Below are positions 99-32,900 of a stretch of 32,900 nucleotides of DNA, one piece after another. The stretch lies in IMG/VR virus record IMGVR_UViG_3300042154_002009, positions 1 to 32,900 of that record; one strand, given 5' to 3'. A program made the position numbers and the translations under genes. Within the stretch, counting starts at the first letter, position 1. Each line of letters begins with the position of its first letter. Source of the stretch: a virus. Under the pieces are notes generated by a model. That model was not told the DNA's origin. It did not search any database and was given only the letters and a program-made list of their open reading frames with translations.

Positions 99-428
99 CT
101 AGGCAAGTGGCTTACTCCCCCTGCGACTATTACAAGACCTGTGTGCGGGTGCTAAAGGACTATCTTTATTTCCTGCGATTATGTGATCAGCAGTGAATGG
201 GTCGTTGGGGCGGGCTGGCTCGTGGCATAGGTGGCAGTAGGTAGCAGATTCTCTTATTATTTTTGCCTTCTTGCGGTACTGGCTATCGTATAGGTTTGGT
301 CTGCGAGCTTTCATCTCTTTGAGTCTGAGGTTCTCTATGGTCTGCCACTCAGCTTGGTGCTGGTCACACCTACTTAGCCCCTTTGTTAATTGACCACAGA
401 CTAGACAAGGTTTAGGGAACCTACCCAT
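99..428 (-). CDS. HNH endonuclease next to the terminase genes across the genome ends
   Basis: This 109-residue protein carries an N-terminal CLVC pair (about residues 8-11) with a later Cys-His pair. Its C-terminal half has a CHLC knuckle (65-68), then DHI near 81 and AHRSCNSRRG near 95-104, the pattern of a zinc-bound HNH nuclease. HNH proteins of this size beside terS/terL are known in HK97-like phages to work with the terminase in cos cutting. Here it is the last gene of the minus-strand early block, and terS is the next gene if the ends are joined, so a packaging role is a reasonable inference. A homing nuclease is the alternative. It overlaps the upstream zinc ribbon gene by eight bases. 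The family call is firm; the role is not proven. Confidence 0.82.
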   Translation of the reverse strand: MGRFPKPCLVCGQLTKGLSRCDQHQAEWQTIENLRLKEMKARRPNLYDSQYRKKAKIIRESATYCHLCHEPARPNDPFTADHIIAGNKDSPLAPAHRSCNSRRGSKPLA

Positions 429-669
429 CCTTACCCCAACCGATACCCATGAAGGTTACTGCTGGTGGGTCATACACTCTCACTAAGTCTTTGGCACAGT
501 TGGTGCAGAGTGGTGTTCTCTCAGGCTCTTGTATCCCTCGGATGACCGACATCTTTAGGTCACAGGTGTTGCACTTGTAATCGTATGTAGGCATTTCTTT
601 TCTTTCTTTTCTAGCATCTATGCGAGCCAACGCATCTAGGAATCCCTGCGTGTGTTCATCTAGCGGCAT
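421..669 (-). CDS. FmdB-like zinc ribbon protein
   Basis: The second part of this 82-residue protein begins MPTYDYKCNTC and has a second CTNC pair about twenty residues later. This is the four-cysteine zinc ribbon of the FmdB/CxxC_CxxC_SSSS family, usually a small putative regulatory protein. Family members normally start at the MPTYDY methionine, which here is residue 26 (ATG ending at 594). That site has only an A/G-rich upstream stretch. The longer start at 669 overlaps the stop of the ABC-GNAT gene (TAATG), typical of translational coupling, and avoids an otherwise empty 75-base gap, so I kept it. The 25-residue N-terminal part is a charged helix of unknown use. Confidence 0.65.
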   Translation of the reverse strand: MPLDEHTQGFLDALARIDARKERKEMPTYDYKCNTCDLKMSVIRGIQEPERTPLCTNCAKDLVRVYDPPAVTFMGIGWGKDG

Positions 670-1820
670 TAGGTCTTGGTGATCCCGATGTACTCATGGC
701 TATAAGTCAGTCTATTGGGGTTCATAGTCCAATCTACAAACCTTTGCCGTCTGAGTTGGCGTTGAGCATCTGAGGCAACATCAGTTCTGTATCTCTTATT
801 CTTGGTTGTCGGCTTCCACTCAATGCTTCTCTCTCTGTACTCACCTAGTCTTGGGTGAGCTGTCTTGGCAAAGAATCTCTTACCCTCGTTGATGTAAGCC
901 TGTGCCACAAAGTCTGCCAACCTTGGCCCAACACCTAGACCTTGATAGTCAGGATGAGTTACCAATCTATGCCCTCGAAATGCGTTCTTGACTGTTCCAC
1001 TTGGATAGCTGATGACTGCGTAAAAGGCTGCTGGACTACCTTCGATGATGGCTGCGAAACACCTAGCGAATGGTGAAAGGTTCGCTGTGAGGTAGTGGTG
1101 CTTAGCGTAAATGTTCCAAAGGGCAGGTTGGACTTCGTGTACTTCTGCCACCACTTGTTCACGCCAAAGACACTCCCTTGGCTTGACTGCGTACATTCCA
1201 GCATCAGTATCTATGATCCAATCAGGCTCAAGATAGCTAAGGATGTCACGATGCACAGTAGCTATGACTACACCAGTTACTCGATTGTCAGAGATGTATT
1301 TTCTAAATGACTTGCTGGCTGCCTTGGCGATGTTTCTATCAACTACTGATGTGTACTCGTCAATGACTGCATTGTCTTTTAGTCTGACTGCAAGGTCAGC
1401 CCTGAACTTCTCACCATTAGATAAGACTGCATAGGGCTTGAACCAAGTTGGGATTGAGGTAAGTCCGACAGCAAATAGTTTCTCTCTTGCCTCATCAGGT
1501 GTGTCGAAGTAATCAACTATGGCTCTGTCATCCCAAGTGTGAGGTTCGGATGATCCGTATGACTTCAGCAGAGTTGACTTACCTGTACCACTCGCACCGA
1601 CTATGACACCGATGCCAAAGGTTTCTGGCAGCGTAGGTGACAGGTATGGATAGAAGGTGGTTGTGCCGTCAGTTTGATAGTCGAAACTTTTGATTGCCTC
1701 TTGTGCCAACTCGGATACAACTACCTTGGACTCAAGTGGTGAGCTACTGCGATGTAGGTCATACCACTCATCATCAAAGACAATTTCTTTTTGATTATCT
1801 TGGGTTTCTAGCTTTGTCAT
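669..1820 (-). CDS. ABC-type ATPase fused to a GNAT acetyltransferase
   Basis: Residues 1-215 form a soluble ABC-type ATPase: Walker A GASGTGKST at 75-83, a degenerate signature LSNGE at 133-137, Walker B AVIDEY with D154/E155, and a switch histidine at 190. Residues 220-330 form a GNAT domain with the acetyl-CoA loop HPDYQGLGVG at 289-298. There are no membrane segments, so it is not a transporter. The stop overlaps the next gene, and the start overlaps the end of the Mom-like gene by four bases, which implies coupled expression. Because Mom itself has a GNAT fold and modifies adenine, a role in making or delivering a DNA base modification is a reasonable inference. Direct acetylation of a protein or RNA remains possible. 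The domain calls are strong; the function is open. Confidence 0.85.
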   Translation of the reverse strand: MTKLETQDNQKEIVFDDEWYDLHRSSSPLESKVVVSELAQEAIKSFDYQTDGTTTFYPYLSPTLPETFGIGVIVGASGTGKSTLLKSYGSSEPHTWDDRAIVDYFDTPDEAREKLFAVGLTSIPTWFKPYAVLSNGEKFRADLAVRLKDNAVIDEYTSVVDRNIAKAASKSFRKYISDNRVTGVVIATVHRDILSYLEPDWIIDTDAGMYAVKPRECLWREQVVAEVHEVQPALWNIYAKHHYLTANLSPFARCFAAIIEGSPAAFYAVISYPSGTVKNAFRGHRLVTHPDYQGLGVGPRLADFVAQAYINEGKRFFAKTAHPRLGEYRERSIEWKPTTKNKRYRTDVASDAQRQLRRQRFVDWTMNPNRLTYSHEYIGITKT

Positions 1821-2467
1821 TTTCCCTCTCTCTTTTCTGGCAACTTAGGGTATGGCTTTATCTCGTACCTAAGCTTACGCATTAGCTCTTTCTTGCGAGT
1901 CTTATTCCCTGTGAAGTAAAGGTAACGATGCTTGCGACCTCGCTCATGCTTCTCAAGCCTATCTCCATAGAATCGTTTGGCTCCCTCAATGCCACCATGC
2001 TCATCAAACAAGTGGCGTGAGTGTTGGTTCGACTGACCATCTAATCGCCACTCCACATGGCGATCACTAAGACCTGTATAAATCCAGTTGCTTGCCTGAT
2101 ACACAACGCCTGTATGACCTGCACCAATCTCGGCATAGGACACGATGATGTCATGTTCAGGTGGCAACATCTTGAGAGTTGATGCAATGAGGTATGACTC
2201 GGTGTTCTTTGGTGTGCCATCTTTGATCCAAAGTCTTGTCAACTCAATAACAGACTTGCTCTCCTCTTTGCCAGCTATACCAACACATAGGGATGGTGAA
2301 GCTGGCTTGCCGTAAATGATTGTGCCTACTAACTCCATGCCATCAAACAAACCGAAGGCGTACATGGTTGAGGCTTTGCGGTGTAGGTAATGGTTTGCGA
2401 CTGTCAGCTCATTCGCCATCTTGCCGGTGATGGGTTCAATGACATACTGCCTTGGGCTAGTTATCAT
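1817..2467 (-). CDS. mom: Mom-like DNA base modification protein
   Basis: The 216-residue protein resembles Mom of phage Mu, a GNAT-fold enzyme that converts adenine in DNA to a carbamoylmethyl-type derivative and so protects against restriction. Recognisable blocks are NHYLHRK at 25-31, the strand-turn FGLFDG at 38-43 with LVGTIIYGKP after it, ELTRLWI at 75-81 and SYAEIGAGHTGVVYQASNW at 110-128. The tail beyond 165 is very basic, fitting DNA contact. Start ATG at 2467 overlaps the upstream gene, and its stop overlaps the ABC-GNAT gene by four bases. The family assignment is from pattern memory rather than alignment. The substrate in this phage is unknown. Confidence 0.78.
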   Translation of the reverse strand: MITSPRQYVIEPITGKMANELTVANHYLHRKASTMYAFGLFDGMELVGTIIYGKPASPSLCVGIAGKEESKSVIELTRLWIKDGTPKNTESYLIASTLKMLPPEHDIIVSYAEIGAGHTGVVYQASNWIYTGLSDRHVEWRLDGQSNQHSRHLFDEHGGIEGAKRFYGDRLEKHERGRKHRYLYFTGNKTRKKELMRKLRYEIKPYPKLPEKREGK

Positions 2468-2983: not shown

Positions 2984-3027
2984 TTGATAACAGTTGTATA
3001 ACGATTTGGTAACAATTTGGTAACAAT
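2984..3027 (-). repeat. Four tandem 11-bp degenerate repeats upstream of the promoter
   Basis: On the minus strand the sequence reads as four adjacent 11-mers: ATTGTTACCAA, ATTGTTACCAA, ATCGTTATACA and ACTGTTATCAA. They begin at the stop codon of the metallophosphoesterase gene and end seven bases before the -35 of the mom-operon promoter. A spacing of one helical turn placed right upstream of a promoter suggests side-by-side binding of an activator or repressor. The binding protein is unknown. Confidence 0.6.
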
Positions 3028-4202
3028 TACAACTTATAGACAGTTCCCTGAAAGTTCTCACCCTTAGTAAGTGGGAACACAAGCAAGCCTGGGTCGCTGT
3101 CATCTCCACCCATGCCAGTTCGATACCAGCTTGAGCCAGCATCAAGGGTTGGGCATTGAATCACCCATCGGCTGTGGTTGTTTCGTCTGCCTGACTCTTT
3201 GACTGTGAGGTGATGGAAGTGTCCATGAATCAGAATGTCAGCGTCTTTTACTGGCTGGTTGCCATGCGACTGATTACGCCACCATTGGACTATGCCGTCA
3301 GGTCTTGAGGCTTGGTGTCCATGCACTAGGCCGAGAATCATCTCGTTGTCACCCCAAACATCTAGGGCAAGTGACTCATCGTTAGCTTGTGGCTCATAGA
3401 ACTTGACTGGCAAGTCTGTTTCCTGTGCGAGCCTGGCAAGCTGGCGTTGAATGTGAATCCCCCAATCGTCATGACTTGTGCCTAGTTTCTGTCTGCCTGA
3501 TCTCCAAGCACAATGATTAGAGCCGACTGAGGCAGCAATTATTGGAGCATAGTTAGCCATTAGCTTTAGGGTTTCCCACTCAAAGGTTGCCTCTAGGTCA
3601 ACCTGTTGCATCAGGCTTAGGTCGTTGGTTCGCATTGGGTTGCCACCTGACTCAAAGCCCTCGATGCTGTCACCGACATTTAGGAAGTAAATAACATCTG
3701 GCTTTTCCTTTTTTAGATAGCTGGTAAGGTTAGCTTGCTTCTCTGCGATGCGTTCAATCAGCTCAGGTGTGCCACCTCGGATGTCACCTGCCTTGCCTGT
3801 CTGAGTATCTGACCAGCAGACAACAACAGCCTTCTCAAGTGTTTCTTTTGGCTTGGCAATCTTGAGTCCCTTACGAGTGTTGGCATAAAGGGTTGGCAGG
3901 TCTATCTCGACTTCAGAGCGTGTTCTGAAGTTGAATCGCCAGCTAACTAACCAATCGCCACCCTCTCTTTGCTGCCACCTGCTAGTTCTGATTGGGCCAT
4001 AAATCTCTATTTTTTGAGGGTCGAAACCTTGCTCGATTAAGAACTCATCAAAGTTAGGTTGGTTGCCGGTAGTCGGTGGGGTTGTTGCCTCACCTAATGT
4101 GCCGTCAAACTCGACTGCTGGCCGCCAATCTTTCGGTGGTGTTACCTTTGGTGCTGGTTCTAAGTTATCTAGCACAACTGCACTCTTTCCTTCTATGAGC
4201 AA
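3027..4202 (-). CDS. Calcineurin-like metallophosphoesterase
   Basis: The expected metal-binding motifs occur in order: SDTQTG with D132, GDSIEG with D178, GSNHC with N229/H230, VHGH at 293-296 and HGHFHH at 326-331. This is the two-metal phosphoesterase fold of the Mre11/SbcD and phosphodiesterase group. About 120 residues of unassigned sequence precede the domain, with a proline-rich linker. The first codon at 4202 is TTG. A GTG at 4175 with GAAGGAAAGAG upstream is equally plausible and would remove nine residues. It overlaps the end of the preceding small gene. A role as a DNA nuclease or nucleotide phosphatase in early infection is likely, but the substrate cannot be read from sequence. 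Confidence 0.85.
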   Translation of the reverse strand: MLIEGKSAVVLDNLEPAPKVTPPKDWRPAVEFDGTLGEATTPPTTGNQPNFDEFLIEQGFDPQKIEIYGPIRTSRWQQREGGDWLVSWRFNFRTRSEVEIDLPTLYANTRKGLKIAKPKETLEKAVVVCWSDTQTGKAGDIRGGTPELIERIAEKQANLTSYLKKEKPDVIYFLNVGDSIEGFESGGNPMRTNDLSLMQQVDLEATFEWETLKLMANYAPIIAASVGSNHCAWRSGRQKLGTSHDDWGIHIQRQLARLAQETDLPVKFYEPQANDESLALDVWGDNEMILGLVHGHQASRPDGIVQWWRNQSHGNQPVKDADILIHGHFHHLTVKESGRRNNHSRWVIQCPTLDAGSSWYRTGMGGDDSDPGLLVFPLTKGENFQGTVYKL

Positions 4203-24342: not shown

Positions 24343-24845
24343 TTCCAAGTTCCTTTGTATTTAGCTATGTAGCTATTCTCTAGCAGTAGGTTAGTTCTCC
24401 CATGCTTTTCTACTTGTCTTGTTGAGTTGGAATCTTTCAGGTCAGGAAATAAGACCAAAGGCTCACCTGCTACTTTTACATAGTCTTGGTGCCAAGCAAT
24501 CTCATTATCTATTGCTTCACGCTTGGTAGTAATTACTGGAACGCCTATCTGGTCAATAACCGAACGCTCATAAACACCTGCGTAACAGCCAAAGAAATAA
24601 GGATCAGCGGTTAGGGCAACAGAGCCAGAAGCATCATTGAGTAAGTCCCAAAAGGCTTCATCCTTGACTACCCAAGAATCTTGTAGAAACAAGAACCTGT
24701 CGGCATTAGTGTTCTCTATGACCCAGCCGATTTTGGCAAGCTCAAATCCAAAGCTAACAACAGCAATGTGGTCACGCTTGATTGAAGCTGAGCAGTCTGC
24801 AAGCCACTCTTGTCTATCGGGCGATGAACCGATTACTACAAGCAT
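24339..24845 (-). CDS. Glycosyltransferase-like protein, 168 residues
   Basis: It begins MLVVIGSSPDRQEWLADCSA and includes ADRFLFLQDSWVVKDEAFWD, a pattern like the GT-A donor domain with the Q-D-S block in place of a DXD, and PYFFGCYAGVYERSVIDQIG. I cannot assign a named family. It lies between two clear glycosyltransferases and overlaps the next by four bases, so the same pathway is likely. It could be a transferase of unusual type or a helper of limited catalytic ability. Confidence 0.65.
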   Translation of the reverse strand: MLVVIGSSPDRQEWLADCSASIKRDHIAVVSFGFELAKIGWVIENTNADRFLFLQDSWVVKDEAFWDLLNDASGSVALTADPYFFGCYAGVYERSVIDQIGVPVITTKREAIDNEIAWHQDYVKVAGEPLVLFPDLKDSNSTRQVEKHGRTNLLLENSYIAKYKGTWK

Positions 24846-26023
24846 TATTTCAACAGGTCAATAAGTACAGGCAACCAGTTCTCTTGCCAAACTTTTTCAT
24901 GGTCATAAGCTTGAGCAAACTCGACAGCCTTAGCTGACTTGCCTTTGCCTCTTGCGTAGGCTTGTTCCAAAGCTTCTACTATTTCTGGAACTGATGGAAC
25001 ATTCCAAAAAGAGTGTTGTGAAGGATCGTAAAGCGGCTGACCACTAACACTCCAACCATCTCCGACTAGCTCTGGGCTGGCAGTAAAGTTGCTGACAATA
25101 ACAGGTACACCACAGGCTTGAGCTTCGATTGTTGGAATACCGAAACCTTCTCCGTAGCTGGTTGCCAACATAACATCCCAAGATGAGTAGATGCCAGCTA
25201 GGGTTTCTTGCGACATTCCGTATCGGTAAGCAAGTGGGTCAGGAAAGGTTAGGTTGTCAGTTGGAATACCAAGTAACTGAGCAAACGCAACCAAGTTCCA
25301 ACCATGCTGTGAGCTTGCGTCTGCGTGGACATACAACATAGCGTCTGGGTGCTTGCGAGCAAACAAAGCAAAAGCCATAAAGTTCTCCGAGTAAGCCTTA
25401 CGGTGCAAGATACCTGATGACTTGTTAGCAGCGTTCATACCGACAATAAAGCGACCATCCTCAAAGCCCATAAACTCGTTGATTGGTTGGTCTTGTATCT
25501 TGTCTGTTTGACTAAATACTTTGGTGTCAATGCTGTGAGGTATGTAGTGACCCTTGACCCCTACATTCTCAATCTGAGATAGACCAAACTTGCTCATAGC
25601 TAAAGGTGTGACATTTTCTTTTTGTAGCCACTTTAGAACTCCTGGTGGAACTGGGTTGTGGTCAATAGGTGTCCAGCTTGCAATAGGGATTGAGTCATAG
25701 GCTTTATTGTTTAGTACCCAAACATCGTAAAGCGTAATCAGTAGATCAGGCTGGTCAGGGTTTAGAGCTTTCCAATGCTTGTGATGTGCTGGGGCAACAT
25801 CGTTTGAATAAGCATCATTGCCTCTTGCGTAAACAGGTATCTCACCGAATCCTGTGTCGTAGGTTGTGTTGACACCTTCGTTGCCGTAGTTGGAAAGTGA
25901 AGCAACATCAGCTCCGTCACGCTTGAGTAACTTTACAAGTGCCTCGGTTGCCTGTCCGTATCCTGTTGGTTGTCCAGGTGAGTTGGAAAAGACTGAAACT
26001 GTCCCTTTTATTTTCTTAGTCAT
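24845..26023 (-). CDS. Glycosyltransferase, family 4-like (GT-B fold)
   Basis: The 392-residue protein has two Rossmann-like halves. The first contains PTGYGQATEALVKLL, a glycine loop, and DLLITLYDVWVL. The second holds the donor motif SYGEGFGIPTIEAQACGVPV, in which E292 and E300 make the EX7E pair typical of GT4 enzymes. It is the first gene of the cassette and directly follows the capsid terminator. Its stop overlaps the start of the next gene. The acceptor is unknown; capsid protein or another virion protein is an attractive possibility. Confidence 0.9.
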   Translation of the reverse strand: MTKKIKGTVSVFSNSPGQPTGYGQATEALVKLLKRDGADVASLSNYGNEGVNTTYDTGFGEIPVYARGNDAYSNDVAPAHHKHWKALNPDQPDLLITLYDVWVLNNKAYDSIPIASWTPIDHNPVPPGVLKWLQKENVTPLAMSKFGLSQIENVGVKGHYIPHSIDTKVFSQTDKIQDQPINEFMGFEDGRFIVGMNAANKSSGILHRKAYSENFMAFALFARKHPDAMLYVHADASSQHGWNLVAFAQLLGIPTDNLTFPDPLAYRYGMSQETLAGIYSSWDVMLATSYGEGFGIPTIEAQACGVPVIVSNFTASPELVGDGWSVSGQPLYDPSQHSFWNVPSVPEIVEALEQAYARGKGKSAKAVEFAQAYDHEKVWQENWLPVLIDLLK

Positions 26024-26055: not shown

Positions 26056-26098
26056 AAAAAGATAGACCCCAAGCGAACCTACACGCTTGGGGTCTATC
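26056..26098 (-). terminator. Strong terminator after the capsid gene
   Basis: GATAGACCCCAAGCG (26061-26075) and CGCTTGGGGTCTATC (26084-26098) form a perfect 15-base stem with an 8-base loop, and on the minus strand the stem leads into TTTTTGC. This is the strongest terminator in the window and closes the capsid transcript before the sugar cassette. Confidence 0.92.
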
Positions 26099-30899: not shown

Positions 30900-32435
30900 C
30901 TAAATAAAAAATTGTGGAGTCAGTTCCTCAGACTCTACTCTACCAACAGTTGCTCTATCAAAGGCTATGACAGCAGCCACAGCAGCGTCAATCTTTCGTG
31001 GTGAGCCTCGATGCTCTTTTACTATTCTTGGGCCAAGCCTGTCAATCTTGATAACAGCGTTGGTGAGGTGTCTAGATAAGGTTGGGTTGCCATCATGGGT
31101 TATGTTTCCCTCTGTGACAGCGGTGTAGAACTTAGAGCAAGCCGGAACCATTCGGCTAGGACTTGATGAGGGATACTCGACCACAGGTAACCCTAAGTCT
31201 TGCATGGCTTCCATAGTGCGTTGCCAGCGGAAAGGGTCACAGGCTATCTCTTTTACATTGTATTTCTGGCAGAATTGGATAATCTCATCCTCGACCTCTG
31301 AGGTGCTAACACGCCAATCATCGGTATCCTCTGGCTGTTTCTCCCAAACCCTGATTAGTCCGACATGAGGGAACTCATCATCTTTAGGAATTGTGCAGTA
31401 GGTCAGGGCTGTGCAGTCACCATTGAAAGAGCCGTCAAAGCCAACGATGACAGGCTGGTCAGGGTCAAGTTCTATCTCGGCATCTAGCTGTTCCCACTTA
31501 CCAGTTGGTAGCCAAGCATTGAGCGAGCTAACCCATTGGTTGAGTCGCTTGGTTCTAAACTCTGGCTCAGGTGTTCTATTGACTGCTGAGGCAAAGTCAT
31601 CCTTAGCAACTAGATCGTTATATCCAGGATTAGCTGATTCCCAAGTGGTTTCAAGTCTGTGGTCTGCCTCTGGCTCAGCTTCCCACCAAGACATAAAGAA
31701 TGTTGGGTCAACTACCTCACCAGTTGATACTCGCTTGCCGTACTGGTAAAGACTGTAAGCGATTGAGTCTTGGCCTGTCATGTCTGTCTTTTGACCGGCT
31801 GTGGTAACCGCTAGTAGCTGAGCCAGCTTGCCTCGGTTACCCATTGAGAGTGAAAGCACATCGAATAGTTCTCGATTCTTGTGAGCATGGATCTCATCCA
31901 CAATCGCTCGGCTAACATTCAGACCTTCTTTTGAGTAAGCCTCGGCTGATAGAACCTTCATCACAGAGTTGGTTGATGGTACATAGATAGCATCTCGATA
32001 CAGCGTGCAAAGCTCTGATAGCTCACTAGCCTCGACCATGCGCTTAGCTTCACCAAAAATAATGCGAGCTTGTTCTTTCTCGGCAGCGGCCACCACGACT
32101 TCGCCTCCCTCGATGCCTTCAGCAATCAGACTGTAAAGAGCCAGCGTTGACGCCAATGCGCTCTTGCCTGATTTCCTGGGTGTGCCTACAAGTGCCACTC
32201 TTGCCCTTAGTCCACCATCTGAATCTCTGGCAAAGATGCGCCTGACTAGTTCCTTTTGCCAAGGTCTTAGGCGTAGTGCCTCCCCTGTCCGACCAGCTAT
32301 TCCGTCTTTACCGATAGTCCCAAAGGCTTCAGCAAACTCAACAGCTAAATCGCCGTCACCTTTGTCAATGGCCTCTTGGGGTACAGGGGTTAGCCAGCGT
32401 GGGGGCCAGCTACTGCTTGGCTTGTCGCTTGGCAA
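30900..32435 (-). CDS. terL: Terminase large subunit
   Basis: The 511-residue protein packages DNA into the capsid. The ATPase domain has Walker A GTPRKSGKS (84-92) and Walker B RAIVDE (D180/E181), with the coupling motif VTTAG at 210-214. The nuclease domain has D334 (VGFDGSFNGD), D400 (EIACDPFRW) and D483 (KIDAAVA), the three acids of the RNase H-like cut site. It overlaps the small subunit gene by 26 bases. Confidence 0.95.
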   Translation of the reverse strand: MPSDKPSSSWPPRWLTPVPQEAIDKGDGDLAVEFAEAFGTIGKDGIAGRTGEALRLRPWQKELVRRIFARDSDGGLRARVALVGTPRKSGKSALASTLALYSLIAEGIEGGEVVVAAAEKEQARIIFGEAKRMVEASELSELCTLYRDAIYVPSTNSVMKVLSAEAYSKEGLNVSRAIVDEIHAHKNRELFDVLSLSMGNRGKLAQLLAVTTAGQKTDMTGQDSIAYSLYQYGKRVSTGEVVDPTFFMSWWEAEPEADHRLETTWESANPGYNDLVAKDDFASAVNRTPEPEFRTKRLNQWVSSLNAWLPTGKWEQLDAEIELDPDQPVIVGFDGSFNGDCTALTYCTIPKDDEFPHVGLIRVWEKQPEDTDDWRVSTSEVEDEIIQFCQKYNVKEIACDPFRWQRTMEAMQDLGLPVVEYPSSSPSRMVPACSKFYTAVTEGNITHDGNPTLSRHLTNAVIKIDRLGPRIVKEHRGSPRKIDAAVAAVIAFDRATVGRVESEELTPQFFI

Positions 32436-32850: not shown

Positions 32851-32900
32851 AGGTCTAGCTTACCCCCGATGGTTTTGAACTGCGGAGATGCACGTTTCCA
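32851..32900. other. Right genome end, noncoding; part of a putative cos region
   Basis: These 50 bases hold no gene. The last nine equal the first nine of the window (ACGTTTCCA). A run CCCCCGATGG lies next to the end of terS. Together with 1-98 it makes the intergenic region between HNH and terS on a circular molecule, the usual cos location. The terS ribosome site is weak (TAGACCT before ATG). Confidence 0.5.

Follow-up and report, generated by a model that had tools for sequence, protein, structure and literature searches.

The window, i.e., the whole analysed stretch of 32,900 nucleotides, is a compact tailed-phage genome of roughly 32.9 kb in which the main genes are encoded on the minus strand. 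Contig L014 (1840-1900) bridges the window ends, continuing from position 1 to position 32900, and the ends overlap by 9 bp (TGGAAACGT). The window thus probably represents a whole genome of about 32,891 bp that was assembled as a circle. No close DNA match to isolated phages was found for window positions 1-25000. The genes studied here fill a slot that varies among relatives; a metallophosphoesterase gene borders it on one side, and the genes for the zinc ribbon, the HNH protein and the terminase on the other. In the direction of transcription, the features are:

3027 to 4202, minus strand: metallophosphoesterase gene (exonuclease family phrog_284, E 1.4e-49), the conserved upstream boundary of the slot in relatives
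2992 to 3028, minus strand: array of 11-bp repeats, consensus TTGTTACCAAA on this strand; conserved in the sister contig L135
2949 to 2976, minus strand: sigma-70-like promoter site TTGGCA-16-TAAAAT with TG before the -10 element, 10/12 matches; conserved in L135
2686 to 2919, minus strand: small ORF (MSKAKV...), the first gene after the promoter site; also in L135
2457 to 2681, minus strand: small ORF (MTIYSATAPDGK...), directly 5' of mom; found before mom in contigs L135-L138 and before a DNA methyltransferase gene in L329
1817 to 2467, minus strand: mom, 216 aa, predicted from its family to be a DNA adenine-modification protein
669 to 1820, minus strand: ABC ATPase-GNAT fusion, 383 aa, with the ABC half at about 1182-1766 and the GNAT half at about 672-1178
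421 to 594, minus strand: FmdB-type zinc ribbon (PF09723, E 2e-10), conserved start at 594, ORF open to 669
99 to 428, minus strand: HNH endonuclease-like gene (PHROG HNH families, best E 2.6e-8), kept in relatives, which closes the variable slot before the terminase
30900 to 32435, minus strand: terminase large subunit (phrog_9, E 2e-112), lying 3' of the slot once the window ends are joined

Both small ORFs (2457-2681 and 2686-2919) are without a Pfam match. Since the promoter site precedes these two genes, mom and the fusion are the third and fourth genes of the operon. The original prediction placed them behind the best promoter of the phage and took them to be switched on early. The score of 10/12 is tied with other sites in the window and does not exceed chance, shuffled sequences contain promoter-like sites at least as often, and the site lies two genes upstream of mom. 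That is, neither the ranking nor early expression finds support. The predicted array of 11-bp repeats upstream is present: TRF reports 2.7 copies of 11 bp at 2999-3028 (94% match), adjoining the promoter site, and a fourth, degenerate copy is visible by eye. The array is a probable operator. The strongest terminator-like site found in the window is a 15-bp perfect stem followed by T on the minus strand (26061-26098), located between structural genes. The structural block also contains a glycosyltransferase gene (24845-26023, minus strand; PF00534, weak match to a GT4-conflict family), whose target could be a virion protein or DNA.

Mom is a family known for long, found by BLAST in 294/50,697 phage records. 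The product of 1817-2467, originally described as Mom-like, is a true Mom. PF25680 (Mom) covers the ORF with E 5.3e-45 (model positions 2-202 of 202; 154 bits vs. a curated cut-off of 27.1), phrog_1384 matches with E 1.2e-56, and the Mu Mom structure 8bv8 aligns end to end (E 9e-21, 31% identity). Based on an alignment with 8bv8 and 13 other Moms, the window Mom and Mu Mom have H-Y, ELxRxW, PxN(T/S)E, S(Y/F)A(D/E) and YQASN in common. The claimed four-base overlap with the fusion gene is likewise present (ATGA), both ORFs being on the minus strand. A Pfam scan of the neighbours of mom gave no match to Com.

The description of the partner as a soluble ABC ATPase fused to a GNAT domain, with Walker A, signature and D154/E155, is borne out. 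Family phrog_11143 matches with E 5e-93 over residues 30-381, i.e., over both domains, and Pfam GNAT PF00583 is above cut-off (E 1.4e-5). Across 64 diverse relatives, there is no or almost no variation in the ABC motifs GASGTGKS, LSNG, AVIDE and VVD, in the switch His190 or in the acyl-CoA loop PDYQGLGxG, which is intact in the GNAT half. Respective invariant positions are G75, G80, K81, S134, G136, D154, E155, H190, Q293, G294 and G298, with G296 nearly so. The AlphaFold model is confident (pLDDT 89.8, pTM 0.83) and contains both domains; the solved structures matching its first half are ABC ATPases (MalK, Wzt, MJ0796), and those matching its second half are GNATs. Weak matches to PADLOC defence families are confined to the ATPase part. 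We rejected a role as transporter ATPase, as implied by public labels ('ABC transporter', 'hemin importer', 'siderophore'), since the family match is full-length through the GNAT half. The base composition of the fusion is genome-like (GC 0.464 vs. 0.469) and gives no signal of foreign origin. With regard to Mom, the GNAT half shows weak profile similarity via an HY(L) motif (P 0.0005, compared to 0.13-0.17 for the ATPase half); we count this alignment in favour of the main reading given below, although it establishes nothing beyond shared GNAT descent.

The combination of domains had been called rare, while it in fact represents a common family. The fusion has matches in 61 phage records at E 1e-5, some of which are weak and ABC-only, and elsewhere in at least 589 viral stretches plus 462 genome stretches. 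Furthermore, PMC7824862, citing Iyer 2013, already lists ABC ATPase-GNAT proteins as a predicted DNA nucleobase acyl modification, with QAX98348 as example accession. This Aeromonas protein is the best phage match of the window fusion (40% identical).

To assess the link between both genes, we examined 214 fusion loci, i.e., 134 viral ones and 80 from cellular genomes. Mom is adjacent to the fusion in 6/134 viral loci (the window, L043, L064, L110, L117, L118), and a fixed Mom/fusion cassette was therefore rejected. The original prediction had named wide occurrence of the fusion without a mom-like neighbour as evidence against its proposal, and this is what we find for the other 128 viral loci. 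A Mom over cut-off is present anywhere in 9/100 fusion records that were searched whole; the fusion is present in 4/50 Mom records. In the tree, Mom-adjacent fusions fall into about four distinct branches (window, L117/118, L043, L064/110), each beside Mom-less fusions, and two of these branches show a 4-bp overlap in the opposite gene order. By these raw counts, Mom-fusion adjacency thus recurs, yet it is neither fixed nor frequent.

Among the 80 fusion loci of bacterial genomes, 55 have a ParB-like neighbour, mostly in Planctomycetota and actinomycetes. At two loci, a tiny ORF just 5' of the fusion (L013:5756-5905, L011:5669-5866) matches the C-terminal part of this ParB-like partner, which suggests that the small C-terminal domain is the part needed by the fusion. 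Another arrangement is found at L043:5585-8018, where a cytidylyltransferase-like gene, the ABC-GNAT gene and a gene for a divergent 307-aa Mom follow each other with 4-bp overlaps.

Close relatives of the window were compared as assembled metagenomic contigs. L135 is 91.6% identical over window positions 6019-1834 and 93.6% over 6715-6183, and its Mom is 98% identical to the window Mom on amino acid level (93-98% across L135-L138). The fusion is absent from L135, i.e., the alignment jumps from window position 1834 to 606. That is, the zinc ribbon gene, which in the window lies directly 3' of the fusion, directly follows mom. L136-L138 are about 80% identical where alignable near mom and show the same order without the fusion. 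From the arrangement in these four agreeing contigs, it follows that mom is kept without the fusion in close relatives.

Additional relatives were gathered via the terminase, and the domain calls within their slots were confirmed by Pfam. N6/N4 methyltransferases occupy the slot in L303, L313, L319, L329, L330 and L338, a C5 methylase is present in L330, and divergent Moms in L323 and L338. The gene order in L338 is Mom, methyltransferase, zinc ribbon, such that the methyltransferase takes exactly the position of the window fusion. In L325 and L326, a Mom gene comes just after the HNH gene and is overlapped by a ParB-like gene, while the slots of L344 and L335 contain little else, the latter with non-modification ORFs. 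Since the fusion is missing from close relatives, or its place is taken by other DNA-marking enzymes, the slot looks like a swappable anti-restriction toolbox and not like one two-step machine.

Two further observations concern the slot and its surroundings. The overlap of ParB-like and Mom genes at L325:4760-6089 mirrors the ParB plus ABC-GNAT pairs. Furthermore, ORFs of 269-353 aa in three slots (L341:2330-3391, L303:6515-7327, L334:403-1212) end in NDELKACGNGVVPQ; they have no Pfam match and resemble by eye the C-terminal part of a C5 methyltransferase.

The fusion is also found exchanged for mom in other phage groups. In Pseudomonas phage Komp_PAO1_1, which is marked as Mu-like by its Gam-like and late-activator genes, Com (PF10122, E 9e-21) is encoded just upstream of the fusion, which in turn overlaps a formyltransferase gene; in Mu, com-mom occupies the corresponding place. 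In P. gingivalis prophages, flanks that are 91% identical over 5.5 kb end either in Mom (E 2e-55) or in the fusion plus a formyltransferase. In addition, a family of Com-like small zinc proteins adjoins the fusion in L091 and its relatives as well as Mom in L198. Small zinc-ribbon ORFs within 400 nt were counted for 19/98 Moms, 20/214 fusions and 26/558 background ORFs; related contigs inflate the number for Mom, and some of the ORFs counted for the fusion are spurious. We read this pattern of gene content as the fusion being functionally interchangeable with Mom.

We consider it likely that the locus is a modular anti-restriction island with two independent DNA-modification genes, in which the fusion is a separate ATP-dependent nucleobase acyltransferase. 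The sequences show both genes, their intact motifs, the presence/absence pattern and the replacement by methyltransferases and by Mom within the slot; that the fusion acts on DNA, along with its acyl donor, target base and benefit, we infer. The originally proposed hypermodification cassette that shields the phage from restriction is hence kept in one respect, i.e., the context gives good support for DNA modification as a means against restriction, and given up in the other, namely as a single two-step pathway.

In such a pathway, Mom would attach a group that the fusion acylates or extends, or the fusion would make Mom's donor, resulting in one hypermodified adenine. The adjacency on about four branches, two of them in reverse order with a 4-bp overlap, leaves room for cooperation; the overlaps, found in both orders across these separate lineages, favour the pathway, as do the similar GNAT folds of both proteins and their common HY(L) motif. 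We reject the pathway as the main reading, and with it the claim that both GNAT folds act in sequence, since mom persists in sister phages that have no fusion and the majority of fusions come without Mom. Both record counts given above (9/100 and 4/50) and the methyltransferase at the fusion's position in L338 also speak against the pathway, which we regard as unlikely. GNAT folds are also known to acetylate proteins or small molecules. The fusion could thus acylate a host or phage protein, e.g., RNA polymerase or a defence protein, and lie in the island because morons gather there. There are phage GNATs that act on proteins (phiKMV Rac, PMC7824862) and the slot sometimes carries non-modification ORFs (L335), but DNA is indicated by the exchanges for mom, both under Com and at the mom locus of P. 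gingivalis, and by those for methyltransferases, and an ABC ATPase half is unexpected in a simple protein acetylase, such that we assign a protein target a low probability. That the fusion is a recently captured, non-functional passenger appears very improbable. It is missing in the sister phage, and its usual ParB and formyltransferase partners are missing in the window, but its frame is full-length and intact with all invariant motifs, a confident fold, translational coupling on both sides and the genome-like GC content reported above.

For the preferred reading of two independent modification genes, we propose the following mechanism. Mom alone would mark adenine, by analogy to phage Mu, and the fusion would be a second enzyme that was acquired separately. 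With ATP, the ABC half probably forms a dimer around DNA; judged from ABC ATPases in general, it may clamp the DNA or flip a base. The GNAT half would transfer an acyl group from CoA to an exocyclic amine of a base, in the manner of an ATP-driven nucleobase acetyltransferase such as TmcA. Both marks together would broaden the protection from host restriction. We know of no chemistry for any ABC-GNAT.

With regard to the donor, the genes of ParB and the fusion are followed in phage Jace (L005:5438-8203) by those of an aspartate decarboxylase (PF02261, E 2e-33) and a CoA-transferase of family III (PF02515, E 2e-8), all in a row. From known enzymology, the latter two could yield beta-alanyl-CoA, and we thus infer an acyl-CoA as donor for the GNAT half, with an acyl part that differs from phage to phage. 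No donor genes were recognised in the window, which makes acetyl-CoA the simplest donor there. Local profiles identified no ParB-like or formyltransferase partner within the whole window, and the fusion may therefore lack something needed. A more specific version of our reading, which we hold tentatively as a serious possibility, is that the fusion lays an undescribed ATP-dependent acyl mark distinct from that of Mom. The acyl group would be set by neighbouring donor genes in other phages (e.g., beta-alanyl in Jace, formylated in Gordonia and Porphyromonas phages), the fusion would replace Mom under the same Com-type regulator, and the phage studied here would carry two bulky marks at once.

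New here are the operon of Mom and fusion, this phage group's modification slot and the observation that the fusion can take the place of mom under Com. An incomplete search of the literature, in which Iyer 2013 was covered via PMC7824862, returned no description of these three. In this literature, ABC ATPase-GNAT proteins have been predicted for over a decade to make a DNA base mark, and no test of the prediction was found. Nearly isogenic natural phages that share mom and differ in the presence of the fusion next to it provide a direct way to find the mark, as do the Mu-like Pseudomonas and Porphyromonas phages in which the content of the mom slot was exchanged. The slot shows how a phage group evades restriction by exchanging unrelated DNA-marking enzymes within a single locus; therefore, its other uncharacterised genes are candidates as well.

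Compared to known systems, the window mom product is a full-length member of the family of phage Mu Mom (PF25680; 8bv8). In the Mu mom operon the activator Com adjoins mom, whereas in the window no Com is recognised and mom is found between unrelated small ORFs (5') and, further 3', an FmdB-type zinc ribbon. A Com neighbour is, however, a trait of the Mu operon and not of the Mom protein family. The fusion shares full-length architecture and motifs with the ABC ATPase-GNAT family (phrog_11143; QAX98348), but differs in context: its relatives usually neighbour ParB-like, formyltransferase or CoA-transferase genes, while the window fusion comes after mom. Phage DNA methyltransferase morons occupy the same slot as the window pair but are SAM-dependent and of unrelated fold. 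The RNA cytidine acetyltransferase TmcA/NAT10 has the same chain layout as the fusion, i.e., ATPase and GNAT in one chain, with a nucleobase amine as target. Its ATPase is of helicase type and its substrate RNA, whereas the fusion has an ABC-type ATPase half, and both the GNAT-loop profile match and the structural match are weak. We refer to TmcA/NAT10 as the nearest working analogy for the fusion and not as a claim of family membership.
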